A DNA stretch of 64,000 bases from Fibrobacterota bacterium (GTDB lineage: Bacteria; Fibrobacterota; Fibrobacteria; UBA11236), in the NCBI GenBank assembly GCA_019509785.1, contig JAEKLQ010000051.1, positions 1 through 64,000 of the forward strand, written 5' to 3'. The first letter of the stretch is position 1; each line of letters starts with the position of its first letter. The notes under the pieces were generated by a model. That model was not told the origin of the DNA, ran no database searches, and saw nothing but the letters and a program-made list of their open reading frames with translations. Of this stretch, positions 32,224-39,471 are shown one piece after another. The translations under genes were made by a program, and so were the position numbers.

Positions 32224-33648
32224 TCAATGGACGAGGTGGAAGAAGTCCTTGGTGGTCGCGACCAGGGTCGTATCGACGGCATCGGTTACGCGGAGCAGGC
32301 AGCGATCCGACACCCCGAGATCTATTGATGGGGTCCAGGCATAGATCGGTAAGCTGTCCGGGGACGTATAATGGCTTTCCAACACGATCCATCTCTCGCC
32401 GCCGGTTGTCGAAACCGCGAGGGTATACGGGCCTTTCCCCTGCATTTGCCATTGCACGTTGTAGGTCTTCGCGAGGTGCAAGGATTCGGCCGGGGCCGGG
32501 TGGATCACGGCGGGCTCGGGCGGCGGCAAATGGCGGACCGAAACCACCACGCTATCGGACCGGGTGCGGGAACCCAGTTTGGCGGAGACCAGAAACCGAA
32601 ATACGCCATCGCCGTGGAAACGGACCTCGGTACGCAACGAAGTCGGAGAAAGGATTTCGGCCAAAGGCGGGGGCTGGGGATCCGCCGAATGCAGATCCGG
32701 GGCGAGCGAATCCGCCCGATGGGTCGAATCGGGAAGCCACTTCCAAAGCACGGACAAGCGCGGATCGGTGGCGGAAATCCCGATGACCTTGGCTTCCAAA
32801 TAGGTATGCCCTTCCACGAAGGTTTCGAATGCAGGCGGGGCCGCGATTTGGAAATCCGGAAGGGAATCGCCGGAGGGGACGGTATCGATGGAGCCGGATG
32901 GCGTGATTGAGGGATGATACACCCGATTGGAATCGGCGGTATTCAGGGAATCGGGGACAGGATAGATTTTCCCGTCCGAACCGATCAGGCGCAATGGCAG
33001 CACGCCTTGGGGCAGGTCCACGAACGCGAATTCGCTGTCCACCAAGGTGGCGAGATAAGGCGTTCCCGGCACGTAGATGCGGCAATCCTCCCCGTGCACG
33101 GGCTCTTTGGCTATGCGCGCCTGGTAGCGGATCAAAGGTTTGGTTTCAAGCGCGACGGACTTCACGGAAGAATCCCGCCGCGTGAATGCGCGCGCGGCCG
33201 AATCGTAGACCAGGTTGAGCGCGATGCCGCCGTTCTTGTCCTGGGTCGTGAGCACCAGGTTGAAAAGGGTGCGATCCTCGGCGCCTACGGTTTCGCCGGC
33301 GGCCGCGCGTTTGGCGGCCGTCTGCTGGGCGCGGCGGAAGTCGTCGCCGGTAAGCACGGTGAAGGCGGAGTTCTTGATCTTGATGGTGGCGAGCGGCTCG
33401 GGATCGATCGCGGGGTTCTGATCGGCGGTGTAAACGTTGAGATCGCCGGTGACGCGGGCGGCCGTGCCGGAAGAGGCGAAGCTGACCGTAAGGGAGGGGT
33501 TGTCGACGCCGGAGCTGGTGCCCGCGACCTGGTTATCCGAACAAGAGGCGGCGAAAAGGCCCAGCGCGCCGAGCATGGCGGCCCAGGCCGTCGCGCGATT
33601 GCGGGCCAAGGAGCGGAGCGGATGGGCGGGGAAACGGTAAAGCGGCAT
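32224..33648 (-). CDS. Large lipoprotein with Ig-like domains, next to a TIGR02147 gene
   Basis: 474 residues; leader ends GLFAASC (lipobox AASC), followed by a Ser/Thr-rich 'NQVAGTSSGVDNPSLTV' linker common in Fibrobacter lipoproteins. Residues about 50-330 alternate beta strands and short repeats. The last 95 residues ('LHLAKTYNVQWQMQG', 'GPYTLAVSTTGGERW', 'IYAWTPSIDLGV') are an Ig/GPI-anchored-type domain (Kre9/KNH1-like fold) found in many FCB surface proteins. It ends 68 bases before the TIGR02147 gene and both read minus strand, so the two may be co-transcribed with the regulator first. Function unknown. Confidence 0.7.
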   Translation of the reverse strand: MPLYRFPAHPLRSLARNRATAWAAMLGALGLFAASCSDNQVAGTSSGVDNPSLTVSFASSGTAARVTGDLNVYTADQNPAIDPEPLATIKIKNSAFTVLTGDDFRRAQQTAAKRAAAGETVGAEDRTLFNLVLTTQDKNGGIALNLVYDSAARAFTRRDSSVKSVALETKPLIRYQARIAKEPVHGEDCRIYVPGTPYLATLVDSEFAFVDLPQGVLPLRLIGSDGKIYPVPDSLNTADSNRVYHPSITPSGSIDTVPSGDSLPDFQIAAPPAFETFVEGHTYLEAKVIGISATDPRLSVLWKWLPDSTHRADSLAPDLHSADPQPPPLAEILSPTSLRTEVRFHGDGVFRFLVSAKLGSRTRSDSVVVSVRHLPPPEPAVIHPAPAESLHLAKTYNVQWQMQGKGPYTLAVSTTGGERWIVLESHYTSPDSLPIYAWTPSIDLGVSDRCLLRVTDAVDTTLVATTKDFFHLVH

Positions 33649-33716: not shown

Positions 33717-34589
33717 TCACGAAGGCACCTTGGTATTGGGGAACAACTGCAAGGTCAGGGAATAGACCCTGTCCTCATTGCGGTCGCGGTCGATGATCTC
33801 GCGCAATTCCTCTTGGAAGGATCGGATGCGATCCTTGATGGCCTGGAACCCGTCCTTCGATATCGAGAACATGAGGGCGTTATATTGCCGCTGCTCGGCC
33901 GGGAGATCGGGGAAAACCGCGGCCGCCATGGACATTAGCTCCTGGATATGCTGGCGGGCGGCCATGGCCTGCACGTTCTTCTCCGTGTAGATGTGCCGTT
34001 CGGCCACCGCGTAGCCGCTGGCCGTCTTCTTGATGAGGCCCAATTCCAAGAGCAATTGCACGGATTCTTCGGCCTGGGACGGGGTAATCGGCGGCAGGAT
34101 GTTGGCGGCGATGGCGCCGGGATGGCGCGTCTTCTGGTCGATGCCGAAGTAGTTCCAGACCGCCGAGTAATACCACTTGGAGAAGAAGCGGTATTGGGTT
34201 TCGCCCACGATGCGGGCGCGCGAAGAGCGGAACTTGGCCAATTGCGCGAAGAAGAAGTTCTTCTCGGTCATGCCCTTGGCCTGGTTGAATTGCACCAGCA
34301 GATCGAAATAGCGGTTTTCGCGCTCCCCCAGCCTAAGGGCCTTCCCGAACTTGACGCGCAAGTTCTGGGACAGCTGGCGGCGGCCGCGGATGACCGCGGG
34401 CAAAAGGCTCGAGCAGGATGCGGGCAGGGCGGCTTCGCGGGCGAAGGCGCGTTGGGAGAATTCCGGATCCACGGATTTACGATGCGCGTAATAGTCGCGC
34501 AGGAAATCGCGATAGTCGAGGTACTGAAGCAGTTGCGGGGCGGGGCCCGTCCACTTCGCCTCGGTAGCCGGCTCGGCTTCGGCATCCAT
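33717..34589 (-). CDS. TIGR02147 family protein, probable regulator
   Basis: 290 residues beginning with 'LLQYLDYRDFLRDYYAHRK' and 'FSQRAFAREAALPASCSSLL', the conserved N-terminal block of this family, followed by 'ANILPPITPSQAEESVQLLLELGLIKKT', a winged-helix-like segment, and a C-terminal helical bundle. The family was defined from paralogs in Fibrobacter succinogenes. Members commonly sit beside lipoprotein or surface genes; a DNA-binding role is inferred, not proven. Downstream on the same strand is the lipoprotein gene 32224-33648; divergently lie the C-x27-C lipoproteins. Confidence 0.85.
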   Translation of the reverse strand: MDAEAEPATEAKWTGPAPQLLQYLDYRDFLRDYYAHRKSVDPEFSQRAFAREAALPASCSSLLPAVIRGRRQLSQNLRVKFGKALRLGERENRYFDLLVQFNQAKGMTEKNFFFAQLAKFRSSRARIVGETQYRFFSKWYYSAVWNYFGIDQKTRHPGAIAANILPPITPSQAEESVQLLLELGLIKKTASGYAVAERHIYTEKNVQAMAARQHIQELMSMAAAVFPDLPAEQRQYNALMFSISKDGFQAIKDRIRSFQEELREIIDRDRNEDRVYSLTLQLFPNTKVPS

Positions 34590-34899
34590 ATCCCAAGTAT
34601 ACTACGCCGACCCGGCCGCGAGGCCCGATTACTCATCAATCGGGTGAGGACAAATAATCCCCTCTTAAAACGGCATTTTCACGACCTTATGACCGGAAGG
34701 AACTAGGGGCTTTTTAGGCAAATATGACTTTGAGGCCGGTTTGGAGGGCCTTTTGTCCGATCGGCCTCCGGAGCGAACGCGATTCGCCGCTTGCGGAGCG
34801 AGGACAAACCATCCTCGCTTTTGGACCCATATTCTTTCCGTTCTTCCATTCCAATCGTTATCCTATGGAGCAAGGCACTGTTCGCCTTACGGAGGAACC
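34590..34899. promoter_or_regulatory. Divergent control region between the TIGR02147 gene and the first C-x27-C lipoprotein
   Basis: 310 bases. It holds a hairpin AGCGAGGA-N7-TCCTCGCT (34797-34819) followed by TTTT, and a second GC-rich hairpin GGAGG...CCTCC (about 34743-34769). These lie in the leader of the plus-strand gene, so transcription attenuation is possible. AT-rich blocks near 34650-34730 are candidate promoters, but none could be assigned. Confidence 0.4.
34797..34822 (+). terminator. Terminator-like hairpin in the lipoprotein leader
   Basis: AGCGAGGA (34797-34804) and TCCTCGCT (34812-34819) with a 7-base loop, then TTTT. It is 78 bases upstream of the ATG at 34900. It could be an attenuator, or a terminator of an unrecognised small transcript. 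Confidence 0.5.
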
Positions 34900-35973
34900 A
34901 TGAAATTCAACTTCCCCAATTTGCGCATCGCCGCGGCCCTGGGGCTGGCTGCCGGAATGATGATCGGGTGCCAGGACCTTCTGAATCCCGGCAAGACGGC
35001 CTCCGACCCGGGCGCGACGAGCGTCGATCAAACCGGTTCTTTAAGCCTGTCCATCCGGAACGACAGCACTTGCATGGGCGAATGGCATGCCATCCTGGAT
35101 GCGCGCAGCGCGGGCCATCCGGATAGCGCCTCCGAGTCGGCCTTCCTGGCGTCTTGCGTGACCGAAGTGAAGCCCGAGAAGGACAAGCCCGTCCCCGTGA
35201 TCCCGCCCCCGTTGCTCCCCGATTCAGGCACGCGTTGCAAATGGATCGTGGCCCAGATCGAAGGCGGCCGGGATTCCCTATCCGTATCGTACCGGAAATA
35301 TTGCCCGGACGATTGCCGTAAGCTCGAGGCCACGGATTCGGCTTCCCATGAGAAATTGTGCCTTGAACCGAAGCCGCATACGGATAGCCTGCCTCCCAAG
35401 CCCCACGATGACGATAGCTTGCCTCCTCGCACGAACCCCGAAGACGATACCTGCAAGATGCTGCTCGTCAAATTGGGAACCGTGAAGCCCGGAGAACCCG
35501 GCCGCGCCGATCTTGAACACCAATACACCGCGCGCTGCCACGAACCCGTGCCGCATGATTCGACTCCCGTGCCGCCCCCGCCCCCGACGGTGAATTGCGA
35601 TGAGTTGCGCAAGAAGATCGCTCTCTTGGATAGCGGTTCCGCCGACTACGCCAGCCTGGTGGTCACCCTGAAGGCGCATTGCCCAGAGAAGCCGCCGGTG
35701 ACGGATACCACCAAAATCCCGCCTCAGCCTCCGGTATCGGATTCGGTTTGCATGGCCCTGAAGCTGCAACTGGCGAATACGCCGGCGGGCACCGCGGGTC
35801 GGTCCGATCTGGAAGCGGCTTTCAAGGCCAAGTGCTCGGAGCCCGTTCCCGTCACGGCTCCGATAGTGAATTGCGACGAACTGCGCGCCAAGCGCGCCGC
35901 CTTGGATCCGGCGTCGGCCGATTACGCGCAACTGACCGCTTTGATGAAGGGGCATTGCCCGGACGTTCCCTAA
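34900..35973 (+). CDS. Lipoprotein with repeated C-x27-C modules
   Basis: 357 residues from ATG 34900 (ribosome site GGAGGAA). Lipobox LGLAAGMMIGC, anchor Cys24. The mature part has modules whose two Cys are always 27 residues apart: C58-C86, C185-C213, C233-C261, C284-C312 and C325-C353. Two further Cys pairs (C113-C135, C139-C154) break the rule. Consensus: C-D-x-L-x(6)-x-L-D-x2-S-A-D-Y-A-x-L-x(6)-C. Pro/Asp-rich spacers separate them. Each module is probably a disulfide-clamped helical hairpin on the outer surface. No family recognised. The neighbouring lipoprotein has three copies of the same module. Confidence 0.75.
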   Translation: MKFNFPNLRIAAALGLAAGMMIGCQDLLNPGKTASDPGATSVDQTGSLSLSIRNDSTCMGEWHAILDARSAGHPDSASESAFLASCVTEVKPEKDKPVPVIPPPLLPDSGTRCKWIVAQIEGGRDSLSVSYRKYCPDDCRKLEATDSASHEKLCLEPKPHTDSLPPKPHDDDSLPPRTNPEDDTCKMLLVKLGTVKPGEPGRADLEHQYTARCHEPVPHDSTPVPPPPPTVNCDELRKKIALLDSGSADYASLVVTLKAHCPEKPPVTDTTKIPPQPPVSDSVCMALKLQLANTPAGTAGRSDLEAAFKAKCSEPVPVTAPIVNCDELRAKRAALDPASADYAQLTALMKGHCPDVP

Positions 35974-36208
35974 GGTAATCCGAAGCAGGGGAGGGGATTC
36001 CGACACGGCCATCGAACCGCCGGGCATCGGAATGGAAGCGGGGGGCCTATGGTCTCCCGCTTTTCGCGTTCGTTCGACCCTCTTTCGGGGGGTGTCCCAA
36101 TCGGTACACGCAAACGGGGACATTCTATCCCTGTTTTCCGCCCCTAGATTCCGCATCCAGGCCTACGCGGCATTTATCCTATTCGTACCACCTATCCTTG
36201 GAGGATCT

Positions 36209-36859
36209 ATGAACAGGAAAACGACGACGATTTCGGCGCTGGCGGGAGCAGGGCTCGTAGCCGCGTTCTTCTTGGGCTGCCAGAATCCGGGGCAAAGCGC
36301 CGCAGGTAACACGCAAGATACCCAGGCCTCCCTACTTTCCCTGGCGGTGAAGGACTCCGGCGATTGCCGCTCCCTGCACGCGCGCTGCGCCATCGCCCAC
36401 GACGCGGGCAAGGATTCGGCTGTTTTAACCGATAGCCTGGTTGGCGCCTGTATCATCGATACGGCCAAGGCGCGGCGGATATTGGAAGGGGGCGGCTTCG
36501 GCGGCGACCGCCATGGCCGGCATGGAGATAACGACAGCGACGGCCCCGGCCGCCTCGACTCAGCCGCCCGGGCCGGTATGTGCGATTCGCTGACCAAGGT
36601 CGTGGCCGGCATGGATTCGACCGACTCCGGCTACGCCGCCGCTAAGGCACATGCGGCTTTTGCCTGTTTCGTACCTCCGGCTCGCCTGGATTCCGCGGCC
36701 CGCGCGGCGCGGTGCGATTCCCTTAAGACCAAGCTGGCTTCCGCGGATTCATCCTCCGCGGATTATGCCATCCTCTCCCATGCTACCCATGAAGCCTGCG
36801 AAGAGCTCCATCCGCCCAAGATCGGACGCGGCTTTCGCCCCTGGCATCGTCATAGGTAA
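36209..36859 (+). CDS. Lipoprotein with three C-x27-C modules
   Basis: 216 residues from ATG 36209 (GGAGG ten bases upstream). Leader MNRKTTTISALAGAGLVAAF, lipobox FLGC, Cys24. It has C53-C81, C125-C153 and C169-C197, all 27 apart, with 'CDSLTKVV' and 'CDSLKTKL' starts and 'SADYAILSHATHEAC' in the third. A Gly/His/Asp-rich linker ('GFGGDRHGRHGDNDSDG') divides the first module from the others, and the tail is Arg/His rich. It is the second gene in the pair beginning at 34900; a 235-base gap separates them, so separate promoters are possible. A GTAAC-N6-GATAC copy is at 36306. Confidence 0.72.
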   Translation: MNRKTTTISALAGAGLVAAFFLGCQNPGQSAAGNTQDTQASLLSLAVKDSGDCRSLHARCAIAHDAGKDSAVLTDSLVGACIIDTAKARRILEGGGFGGDRHGRHGDNDSDGPGRLDSAARAGMCDSLTKVVAGMDSTDSGYAAAKAHAAFACFVPPARLDSAARAARCDSLKTKLASADSSSADYAILSHATHEACEELHPPKIGRGFRPWHRHR

Positions 36860-37106: not shown

Positions 37107-38006
37107 ATGCCTTTCGGCTTGAACCCTCGTTTCACCTTCTATGCCTGCTTGTTGTTGGGGATGTCGCTCATCCTCATCGCCGTTTTGCTGAAGCGGCAGC
37201 AACGCCGTCAGCGCCTCTCGCGGACCCGGAGCGAAGGCCACGTCGGGGAAAAATCTGTGGTCCTGCTCGGCCGCGGCGAGAAGATCATCGAAAGCGGCAT
37301 CGCCGGGGTTTTCGTTTCCTTGGAGAAGTTCCTCCGGGACATCGGCTTCCAGGTGGAGGCGACCGCCGACTTGCGGCGCTTCGAGGCAATCTTACGGAAA
37401 GGGGCCCCGGTGATCCTGGGCATCGATTGCGGCCTGGGACCGAAGGCGCTGCGGAGGATCGACGCCGCCTGCCGGGCCTGCTTCGAAATGCGCGCCTCCG
37501 TGGTCTTCTTCTATAACGCGGCCCGGCCCGAAACCCTCAAGCCCCCGGCCAGCCTTCCCCAGGCCACCTACCTGGGCGAAAACTTCGCGGGCCTGCACGT
37601 GCTCGAAATCATTTCCTACGCCATCTCCCTGGAAGATAACGCTCCCCGCCCCGCCGCGGCATTACGCGAAGGCTCGACGCTGGAAGGCAAGAATGTCGGC
37701 CATGCCCTTCCGGAGATCCTCCAGTTCCTGGAAGCGGGGAGCCGGACCGGCCTGCTGAGCCTGGAGGACGGCAAGCCCGCGGGCATCATCGGCTTCGAGC
37801 AAGGCGCCATTACCTTCGCCCAGACGCGGCTCGCCGAGGGCCTGGAAGCCATCATGGAGGTCCTATCGGTGACCGGAGGTACATTCCATTTCTTCGATCA
37901 TAAGCGGGTGATGCAAAGCAATTGCCGAATCATGCCCCAGGAAGCGCTGATGCAATGGGCCTGCCGGCTGGACGAGAACGATCAGGTTCTCCCTCATCAG
38001 CCATAA
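37107..38006 (+). CDS. Membrane-anchored pseudo-receiver/DUF4388 protein
   Basis: 299 residues. One N-terminal membrane segment ('FYACLLLGMSLILIAVLL', about 11-28), then a CheY-like region (about 50-175): 'VVLLGRGEKIIESGIAG', 'VILGIDCGLG', 'ASVVFFYNAARPE'. The normal acidic cluster and the Thr/Lys switch residues are not conserved, so it is probably a pseudo-receiver that is not phosphorylated. The C-terminal domain (about 190-270), with 'EILQFLEAGSRTGLLSLEDG', 'GIIGFEQGAITFAQT' and 'GTFHFF', is DUF4388/PatA-N-like. It has a longer paralog immediately downstream at 38152; the two probably arose by tandem duplication. Role unknown, perhaps a scaffold in signalling. Confidence 0.72.
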   Translation: MPFGLNPRFTFYACLLLGMSLILIAVLLKRQQRRQRLSRTRSEGHVGEKSVVLLGRGEKIIESGIAGVFVSLEKFLRDIGFQVEATADLRRFEAILRKGAPVILGIDCGLGPKALRRIDAACRACFEMRASVVFFYNAARPETLKPPASLPQATYLGENFAGLHVLEIISYAISLEDNAPRPAAALREGSTLEGKNVGHALPEILQFLEAGSRTGLLSLEDGKPAGIIGFEQGAITFAQTRLAEGLEAIMEVLSVTGGTFHFFDHKRVMQSNCRIMPQEALMQWACRLDENDQVLPHQP

Positions 38007-38151: not shown

Positions 38152-39471
38152 ATGGCAACCGGAGCCGGAATCATGCTCGCCGCGATTTTCGCGGCGACAG
38201 CCCCACTCGCCGCCGAGACGGCATCGGAGAAGGCGGCCTTACGCCTTGAAGCCGCCGATTCCCTGACCATCAATTATTTCGCGAAGGTCTTCCTCTTGCC
38301 CTCGGAGGATGCGCCCCTGATGGGCCTCGCCGAGGACGGGCTTCGGCTTGCCGTATTCAGGCGCAAGGAAGGTTGGGCCCAAGTCGGCTTCCGCCGCGCC
38401 ACCGGATGGATCCGGACCGCGCCGCCTCCCCAGGGTAACATTCCAGTTACGGTTGGCTTTCCGATCGCCGATGGGAAAGGTAGCCCGAATAGCGCGATGG
38501 GAGGAAGCGAAACGGCCCTGGCGTCCGCCCTTGCGCGCGCTTCCGTTGTCCGACTGCCCCGGCGCTTGGGTATCGCGCTGGCTTTAGGCCTCGCCGGCAG
38601 CGCCTGCGCCCTCATGGCCGCGATGTTGGCTTCCCGACGCGGCCGTCGCAAGACGCGCCGCCCGGGTCCCCCTGTTCCCGCCGGCCGGCGGGCCTTGTTG
38701 CTAGCCCCGCGCCAGAAGGTTATCGAAAGCCATTTACCGGGAGTGTTCATCCCCCTGGGACAGGCCCTGCGGGATCTTGGATTCGCGGTCGAGCACTCGG
38801 ATACCCTGGCGCGCTGCGCGATGCGTTTCCGGAAAGGGGATGTCCCCGCCGTGCTCGGGCTGGACGTCCGGCTGGGCAGGCGGGCGACGGCTGGGGCCTT
38901 GGACCTGTGCCGACGCGCGGGCCGGGCCCCCGTCATGATCTTCCTGTATAATTCCGATGATCCGGAAGCCATCCGTCCGCCGGCGGATCTGCCGCAAGTG
39001 CATTACCTCAACGGGCGCTTTTCTAGCCGGCACGTGATGGAATTGCTGGCGCCCCTCTATCATGCCCGGCCCGCCGCGGAAGGCGACGAAGCCGTGCCGG
39101 CCGTACCCTGTTCCTTGGAAGGCCGCATCGAGACGGCAGGCTTGTCGGACATCTTGCAGTTCCTGGAAGTGGGTCGCCGCAGCGGCATGCTCAGCATCGA
39201 GGACGGCCCGCCCGCCGGCGTTCTCAACTTCGCCAACGGCATCATTACTTTCGCGCAAACGCGCACCGCCGAGGGCGCCGATGCGGTCCTGGAAATCCTT
39301 TCCCTGGTCCAAGGCGGGTTCAGATTCTACCTGGATAAGCGGATCGATCAGTGCAATTGCCGGCTATCCGCGTTCGAAGTCGCCTTGCGTTGGGCCCATC
39401 GCCATGACGAGACCGTGAAGATGGCCCAGGGACGCGAATACGCCTGGGCCCATGGCCCGGTCTCAGCGTAG
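38152..39471 (+). CDS. Periplasmic-domain pseudo-receiver/DUF4388 protein
   Basis: 439 residues; AAGGAGG seven bases before ATG 38152. Signal peptide 'MATGAGIMLAAIFAATAPLA', an SH3-like periplasmic domain ('FAKVFLLPSEDAP', 'RKEGWAQVGFRRATGWIR'; about 40-85), then a membrane span ('LGIALALGLAGSACALMAAM', about 140-160). Cytoplasmic pseudo-receiver (about 178-300) and DUF4388 (about 315-395: 'DILQFLEVGRRSGMLSIEDG', 'GVLNFANGIITFAQT') complete it. The SH3-like domain suggests binding to wall glycan. Paralog of the gene upstream. Its end overlaps the convergent PstS-OmpA gene by nine bases. A perfect palindrome copy is at 38435. Confidence 0.72.
   Translation: MATGAGIMLAAIFAATAPLAAETASEKAALRLEAADSLTINYFAKVFLLPSEDAPLMGLAEDGLRLAVFRRKEGWAQVGFRRATGWIRTAPPPQGNIPVTVGFPIADGKGSPNSAMGGSETALASALARASVVRLPRRLGIALALGLAGSACALMAAMLASRRGRRKTRRPGPPVPAGRRALLLAPRQKVIESHLPGVFIPLGQALRDLGFAVEHSDTLARCAMRFRKGDVPAVLGLDVRLGRRATAGALDLCRRAGRAPVMIFLYNSDDPEAIRPPADLPQVHYLNGRFSSRHVMELLAPLYHARPAAEGDEAVPAVPCSLEGRIETAGLSDILQFLEVGRRSGMLSIEDGPPAGVLNFANGIITFAQTRTAEGADAVLEILSLVQGGFRFYLDKRIDQCNCRLSAFEVALRWAHRHDETVKMAQGREYAWAHGPVSA

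Follow-up and report, generated by a model that had tools for sequence, protein, structure and literature searches.

Helical hairpins clamped by disulfides are found in CHCH (twin CX9C) domains and in plant alpha-hairpinins, in which two short antiparallel helices bear two cysteines each and are held together by two disulfides. Pairs of helices of about 34 residues are also seen in TPR repeats.

The TIGR02147/DUF4423 (PF14394) family is a large one. The literature that we searched does not name TIGR02147 and gave neither a function nor an operator for the TIGR02147/DUF4423 family; DUF4423 appears in a Bdellovibrio proteomics table (PMC12546842). Here we analyse a stretch of 64,000 nucleotides of a Fibrobacterota genome (the window), in which a full member of this family is encoded divergently from lipoproteins with regularly paired cysteines, and for which, in contrast with the family's literature, we propose a candidate operator and target genes. 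We lean towards the view that the clamped-hairpin lipoproteins, here P1 and P2, and the divergent TIGR02147 gene make up a small regulon with a shared operator.

Two lipoprotein genes with paired cysteines

The genes of the locus are as follows.

32224..33648, minus strand: lipoprotein with a GTSSGVDNP motif, downstream of the TIGR02147 gene on the same strand; a conserved partner of the regulator
33717..34589, minus strand: TIGR02147/DUF4423 gene (290 aa), divergent from P1
34900..35973, plus strand: P1 lipoprotein (357 aa), with lipobox MMIGC24 followed by seven helical hairpins of the disulfide type (C58-C86, C113-C135, C139-C154, C185-C213, C233-C261, C284-C312, C325-C353) and Pro/Asp-rich linkers between them
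36209..36859, plus strand: P2 lipoprotein (216 aa), with lipobox FFLGC24 and hairpins C53-C81, C125-C153 and C169-C197

The GTSSGVDNP lipoprotein has no match in Pfam or NCBIfam. Two adjoining genes further along the window (37107-38006 and 38152-39471) each end in a DUF4388 domain. Because both ATGs are preceded by GGAGG and the orthologues of both proteins show 45–65% identity, P1 and P2 are real genes. As read from the sequence, each starts with a hydrophobic stretch that ends at the lipobox Cys24 and is conserved in the orthologues, and both thus have the signal peptide and lipobox cysteine of putative lipoproteins.

An earlier note on this DNA had listed eight pairs of cysteines separated by 27 residues, and a check of the sequence found all of them at the residues claimed, five in P1 and three in P2. 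Under random placement of the cysteines, P is 5e-5 for the five pairs of P1 and 6.5e-4 for the three of P2; if any one spacing in the range of 6 to 59 is accepted, P is 0.004 and 0.035, respectively. The regularity is thus well above chance expectation. The spacing of exactly 27 is true of the eight modules of the window but not of the family, because 26 to 28 residues separate the cysteines in the modules of relatives. Likewise, the proposed S-A-D-Y-A-x-L middle is exact in the C233 and C325 modules of P1 and the C169 module of P2 but not in the other five, with G-R-[AS]-D-L in its place in the C185 and C284 modules. Two shorter pairs of P1, C113-x21-C135 and C139-x14-C154, had been missed; they are invariant in all five P1 orthologues and, because they add two shorter hairpins, all 14 mature cysteines of P1 are paired. 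Cys60 of P2 (window 36386-36388), an extra cysteine of the C53-C81 hairpin, is conserved in all four P2 orthologues and leaves an odd number of cysteines; it may perhaps form an intermolecular disulfide.

A predicted single-disulfide helical hairpin

We modelled the following module with AlphaFold2, using the alignment of 22 modules.

35578..35697, plus strand: P1 residues 227-266 (C233-C261 with flanks), predicted as helix, loop, helix

The model (mean pLDDT 81) consists of helices at positions 7-16 and 22-34; the cysteines, at 7 and 35, open the first helix and follow the second, respectively. For the whole of P1, model confidence is low (pLDDT 60, pTM 0.28, linkers below 50), and the alignments given to AlphaFold were shallow; in this model each of the seven cysteine pairs frames a pair of helices, with low confidence for the two shortest, and the first hairpin has strands at its sides (49-52 and 87-90). 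A two-helix hairpin, which the earlier note had found to fit the hydrophobic spacing, is thus what AlphaFold2 predicts, with cysteines at the open end, for the module and for all seven pairs of P1. The antiparallel arrangement of the helices, as in disulfide-clamped helical hairpins in general, would place the two cysteines of each hairpin close together.

Apart from the two cysteines, no residue is invariant across the aligned modules, and one disulfide probably clamps each two-helix unit. P1 orthologues have 14, 18, 16 and 12 mature cysteines (9 in genome G004), or 4 to 9 hairpins, and P2 orthologues have 7, 7, 7 and 5, including one conserved odd cysteine. The number of cysteines nearly always changes in twos because hairpins are gained or lost as whole units, and this paired change supports a disulfide between the two cysteines; the odd count in G004 argues against strict pairing. 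The home genome encodes DsbA-type oxidoreductases, and our searches of it found no DsbB or VKOR, which counts against the disulfide explanation. This last result, together with the conserved odd Cys60 of P2, would fit cysteine pairs that serve for metal binding or redox switching and not as permanent clamps. We regard this as improbable, because one cysteine at each hairpin end with nothing else invariant makes a poor metal site, and because end-to-end pairing is kept across hairpins of different lengths.

The earlier note did not recognise the module as a known domain, and we also found no convincing match in Pfam, NCBIfam or the PDB, either by sequence or by fold. First in the PDB fold list was a hairpin of chain F of photosystem I, which we rejected as not significant (E 1.3). 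There was no match in IMG/VR that would indicate a viral origin or spread of the module. With CHCH domains and alpha-hairpinins the module shares two short antiparallel helices held by a disulfide, but it has one cysteine per helix and one disulfide, and contains neither the two CX9C motifs with two disulfides of the former nor the CX3C...CX3C pattern of the latter. Moreover, its disulfide would lie at the open end of the hairpin, and the unit is repeated along a lipoprotein.

Since two paired helices are predicted, and since the middle L-D-P-A-S-A-D-Y-A-x-L resembles the join of two TPR repeats, the modules could be viewed as diverged TPR-like helix pairs in which the cysteines are incidental. 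We find this highly improbable: none of the 22 modules matched a TPR profile in a Pfam scan listed up to E 10, the supposedly incidental cysteines are the invariant positions, and in the low-confidence P1 model the hairpins are set apart by Pro-rich linkers, also of low confidence, an arrangement that argues against stacking into a superhelix. Unlike TPR repeats, the modules would be isolated beads, each clamped by its cysteines.

Distribution and gene order

We searched 168 genomes of the phylum with the module profile, leaving weak matches (E 0.01–0.1) out of the count. Strong matches were confined to the home genus, uncultured, where the module is present in five of six genomes, and to a single protein of the sister-genus genome G009, a Pro-rich lipoprotein with one C-x27-C pair (E 6e-15). 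Orthologues of P1 and P2 exist only within the home genus, both in G002, G003 and G005 and P1 alone in G004; neither was found in G001, where we also found no close orthologue of the TIGR02147 protein. A P2-like match in G006 (E 0.02) was discarded because its frame is interrupted by stops.

The gene order is conserved as well. Within the genus, the GTSSGVDNP lipoprotein and the TIGR02147 gene recur on one strand, and P1 and P2 on the other, with P2 absent from G004. In six genomes the TIGR02147 gene and the lipoprotein are divergently transcribed. In G009 the single-module lipoprotein is divergent from a TIGR02147 gene that is followed by a SSEVDNP lipoprotein, and the flanking genes differ. 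The equivalent place in G006 is occupied by a Pro-rich lipoprotein without modules. The home genome also contains a paralogous locus on contig C35, with a TIGR02147 protein 65% identical to that of the window and a divergent lipoprotein whose cysteine pairs (C118-x26-C145 and C169-x28-C198) look hairpin-like by inspection, although not by profile. A divergent lipoprotein in G002 (contig C85) has cysteines, but no hairpin-like pair and no operator-like site. At several loci, lipoproteins with an N-terminal motif of the GTSSGVDNP type follow TIGR02147 genes on the same strand.

The best conserved stretch of P1 is its N-terminal part, residues 48-157 (75% mean column identity). Taken with a bead number that varies from 4 to 9, this would suit beads that are inert spacers, a stalk for a function located in that part. 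Such a reading is possible but rather unlikely, in that conservation within the bead sequences extends beyond the cysteines, and the sister-genus protein of G009 has a bead and nothing resembling the N-terminal part of P1.

The TIGR02147 protein and operator-like sites

The divergent gene product is a confident member of TIGR02147 (226 bits, the curated cut-off being 50, over profile positions 3-271 of 272) and contains DUF4423 in residues 124-284 (104 bits). Its N-terminal part has no helix-turn-helix match in Pfam. Searching the PDB with the TIGR02147 profile gave as best matches the helix-turn-helix proteins HigA and C.AhdI, with E values (0.3–1.5) that are not significant; the HigA-type and C.AhdI matches align over one stretch, profile positions ca. 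34–87, and the N-terminal part is thus weakly helix-turn-helix-like.

Alignment of the divergent intergenic regions uncovered two conserved copies of an imperfect inverted repeat, and a degenerate copy lies before P2.

34644..34662, plus strand: operator-like site 1, GTGAGGACAAATAATCCCC, 55 bp from the TIGR02147 start codon
34798..34816, plus strand: operator-like site 2, GCGAGGACAAACCATCCTC, starting 102 bp before the P1 ATG
36114..36132, plus strand: degenerate operator-like site, ACGGGGACATTCTATCCCT, 95 bp before the P2 ATG

A perfect inverted repeat, AGCGAGGA-N7-TCCTCGCT, has site 2 as its core. The window contains two exact-pattern sites, against 0.26 expected for up to three mismatches, and the same two come first (32.5 and 26.3 bits, the next being 10.6) when the window is scored with a matrix from which its own sites were left out. 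Upstream of P2, the best place for this matrix is the degenerate site, which is weak (5.0 bits; the next scores -4.6), and clear single sites occur at the P2 position in three relatives (G002, G003 and G005). Site pairs are also present in G002, G003, G004, G005 and G006. When two mismatches at most are allowed, the pattern occurs five times in the home genome, and four of these occurrences form pairs at the P1 locus and at its C35 paralogue. Because these four lie at two TIGR02147-lipoprotein loci, the TIGR02147 protein seems to be a regulator that binds DNA and whose operator is nearly locus-specific, the link between protein and sites being positional. The suggestion of the earlier note that the TIGR02147 gene may control the lipoproteins gains support from the conserved gene order and the duplicated operator-like element, in several genomes and at the paralogous locus.

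The lipoprotein-side sites start 93–107 bp before the ATG of P1, P2 and two related lipoproteins, and a TATCCT/TATTCT-like element follows most sites ca. 43 nt downstream. Class I activators often bind near -67, and if this element were a -10 box, the centre of the site would be near -67. The nearly fixed distance of one copy from the lipoprotein start, and the same orientation of every copy relative to the lipoprotein, could also be expected if GTGAGGACAAATAATCCCC were a promoter element or the site of another regulator, with TIGR02147 merely adjoining. This seems unlikely to us, because the second copy is always near the start of the regulator, which is transcribed in the opposite direction, because pairs also occur at the C35 paralogue and in G006, where the lipoprotein has no modules, and because other TIGR02147 loci have upstream inverted repeats of their own.

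The best of these other repeats, GCTCTC-N5-7-GAGAGC, is located at about -89 to -101 of related TIGR02147 genes in four genomes (loci L118, L119, L120 and L122), and is a candidate for the operator of another TIGR02147 clade. Two more inverted repeats are perfect and have a centre rich in A: GTACACAAAAGTGTAC, found twice, 68 bp apart, upstream of a TIGR02147 gene on contig C68 of the home genome (L006), and GGGCACAAAAAGTGCCC, upstream of one on contig C6 of G005 (L106). In all, the other TIGR02147 upstream regions contain 65 inverted repeats with six-base arms against ca. 18 expected from shuffles, an excess that is only suggestive, since overlapping and terminator-like repeats are counted. 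We do not claim a common operator for the whole family, because a test for repeat pairs in these regions gave a clear pair at few loci only. The home genome (5.4 Mb) has 34 DUF4423/TIGR02147 matches, and 14 control genomes have none.

Discussion

In the explanation that we propose, P1 and P2 would be exported lipoproteins that, once mature, are made up of small beads in a row. Each bead would be a two-helix hairpin with its open end closed by one disulfide and, in P1, would be connected to the next through flexible Pro/Asp-rich linkers. The TIGR02147 protein would probably be a helix-turn-helix DNA-binding dimer; it would bind the imperfect inverted repeat of consensus GTGAGGACAAATAATCCCC at one position near its own start and at one ca. 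100 bp upstream of each lipoprotein start, and would control its own gene and the lipoprotein genes. The strongest parts of this proposal are the architecture of cysteine pairs, its restriction to a single lineage and the conserved pairs of operator-like sites.

The gain and loss of beads as whole units indicates that P1 and P2 are probably extended multivalent binding or spacer proteins of the outer envelope, where they may be surface-exposed. Such a role for the beads is our best guess, suggested by the variation in copy number, the Pro-rich linkers and the lipid anchoring, and it is the weakest step of the explanation.

We would put at about even the chances of the broader conclusion, namely that the beads are a new domain family of single-disulfide, two-helix units, which occur in varying copy number in the lipoproteins of a single uncultured family of Fibrobacterota, and that the sites are the first operator for a TIGR02147 protein, each TIGR02147 clade having its own palindromic operator. 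The bead would then be a simple disulfide module that can be counted genetically and is absent from the family libraries. Fibrobacterota have many TIGR02147 proteins, and a nearly locus-specific inverted repeat before defined lipoprotein genes turns this unexplained paralogous family into the subject of a testable hypothesis, that its members are DNA-binding regulators of their own gene and of nearby exported lipoproteins. If true, the 34 copies of the home genome would be parallel regulators of exported lipoproteins.
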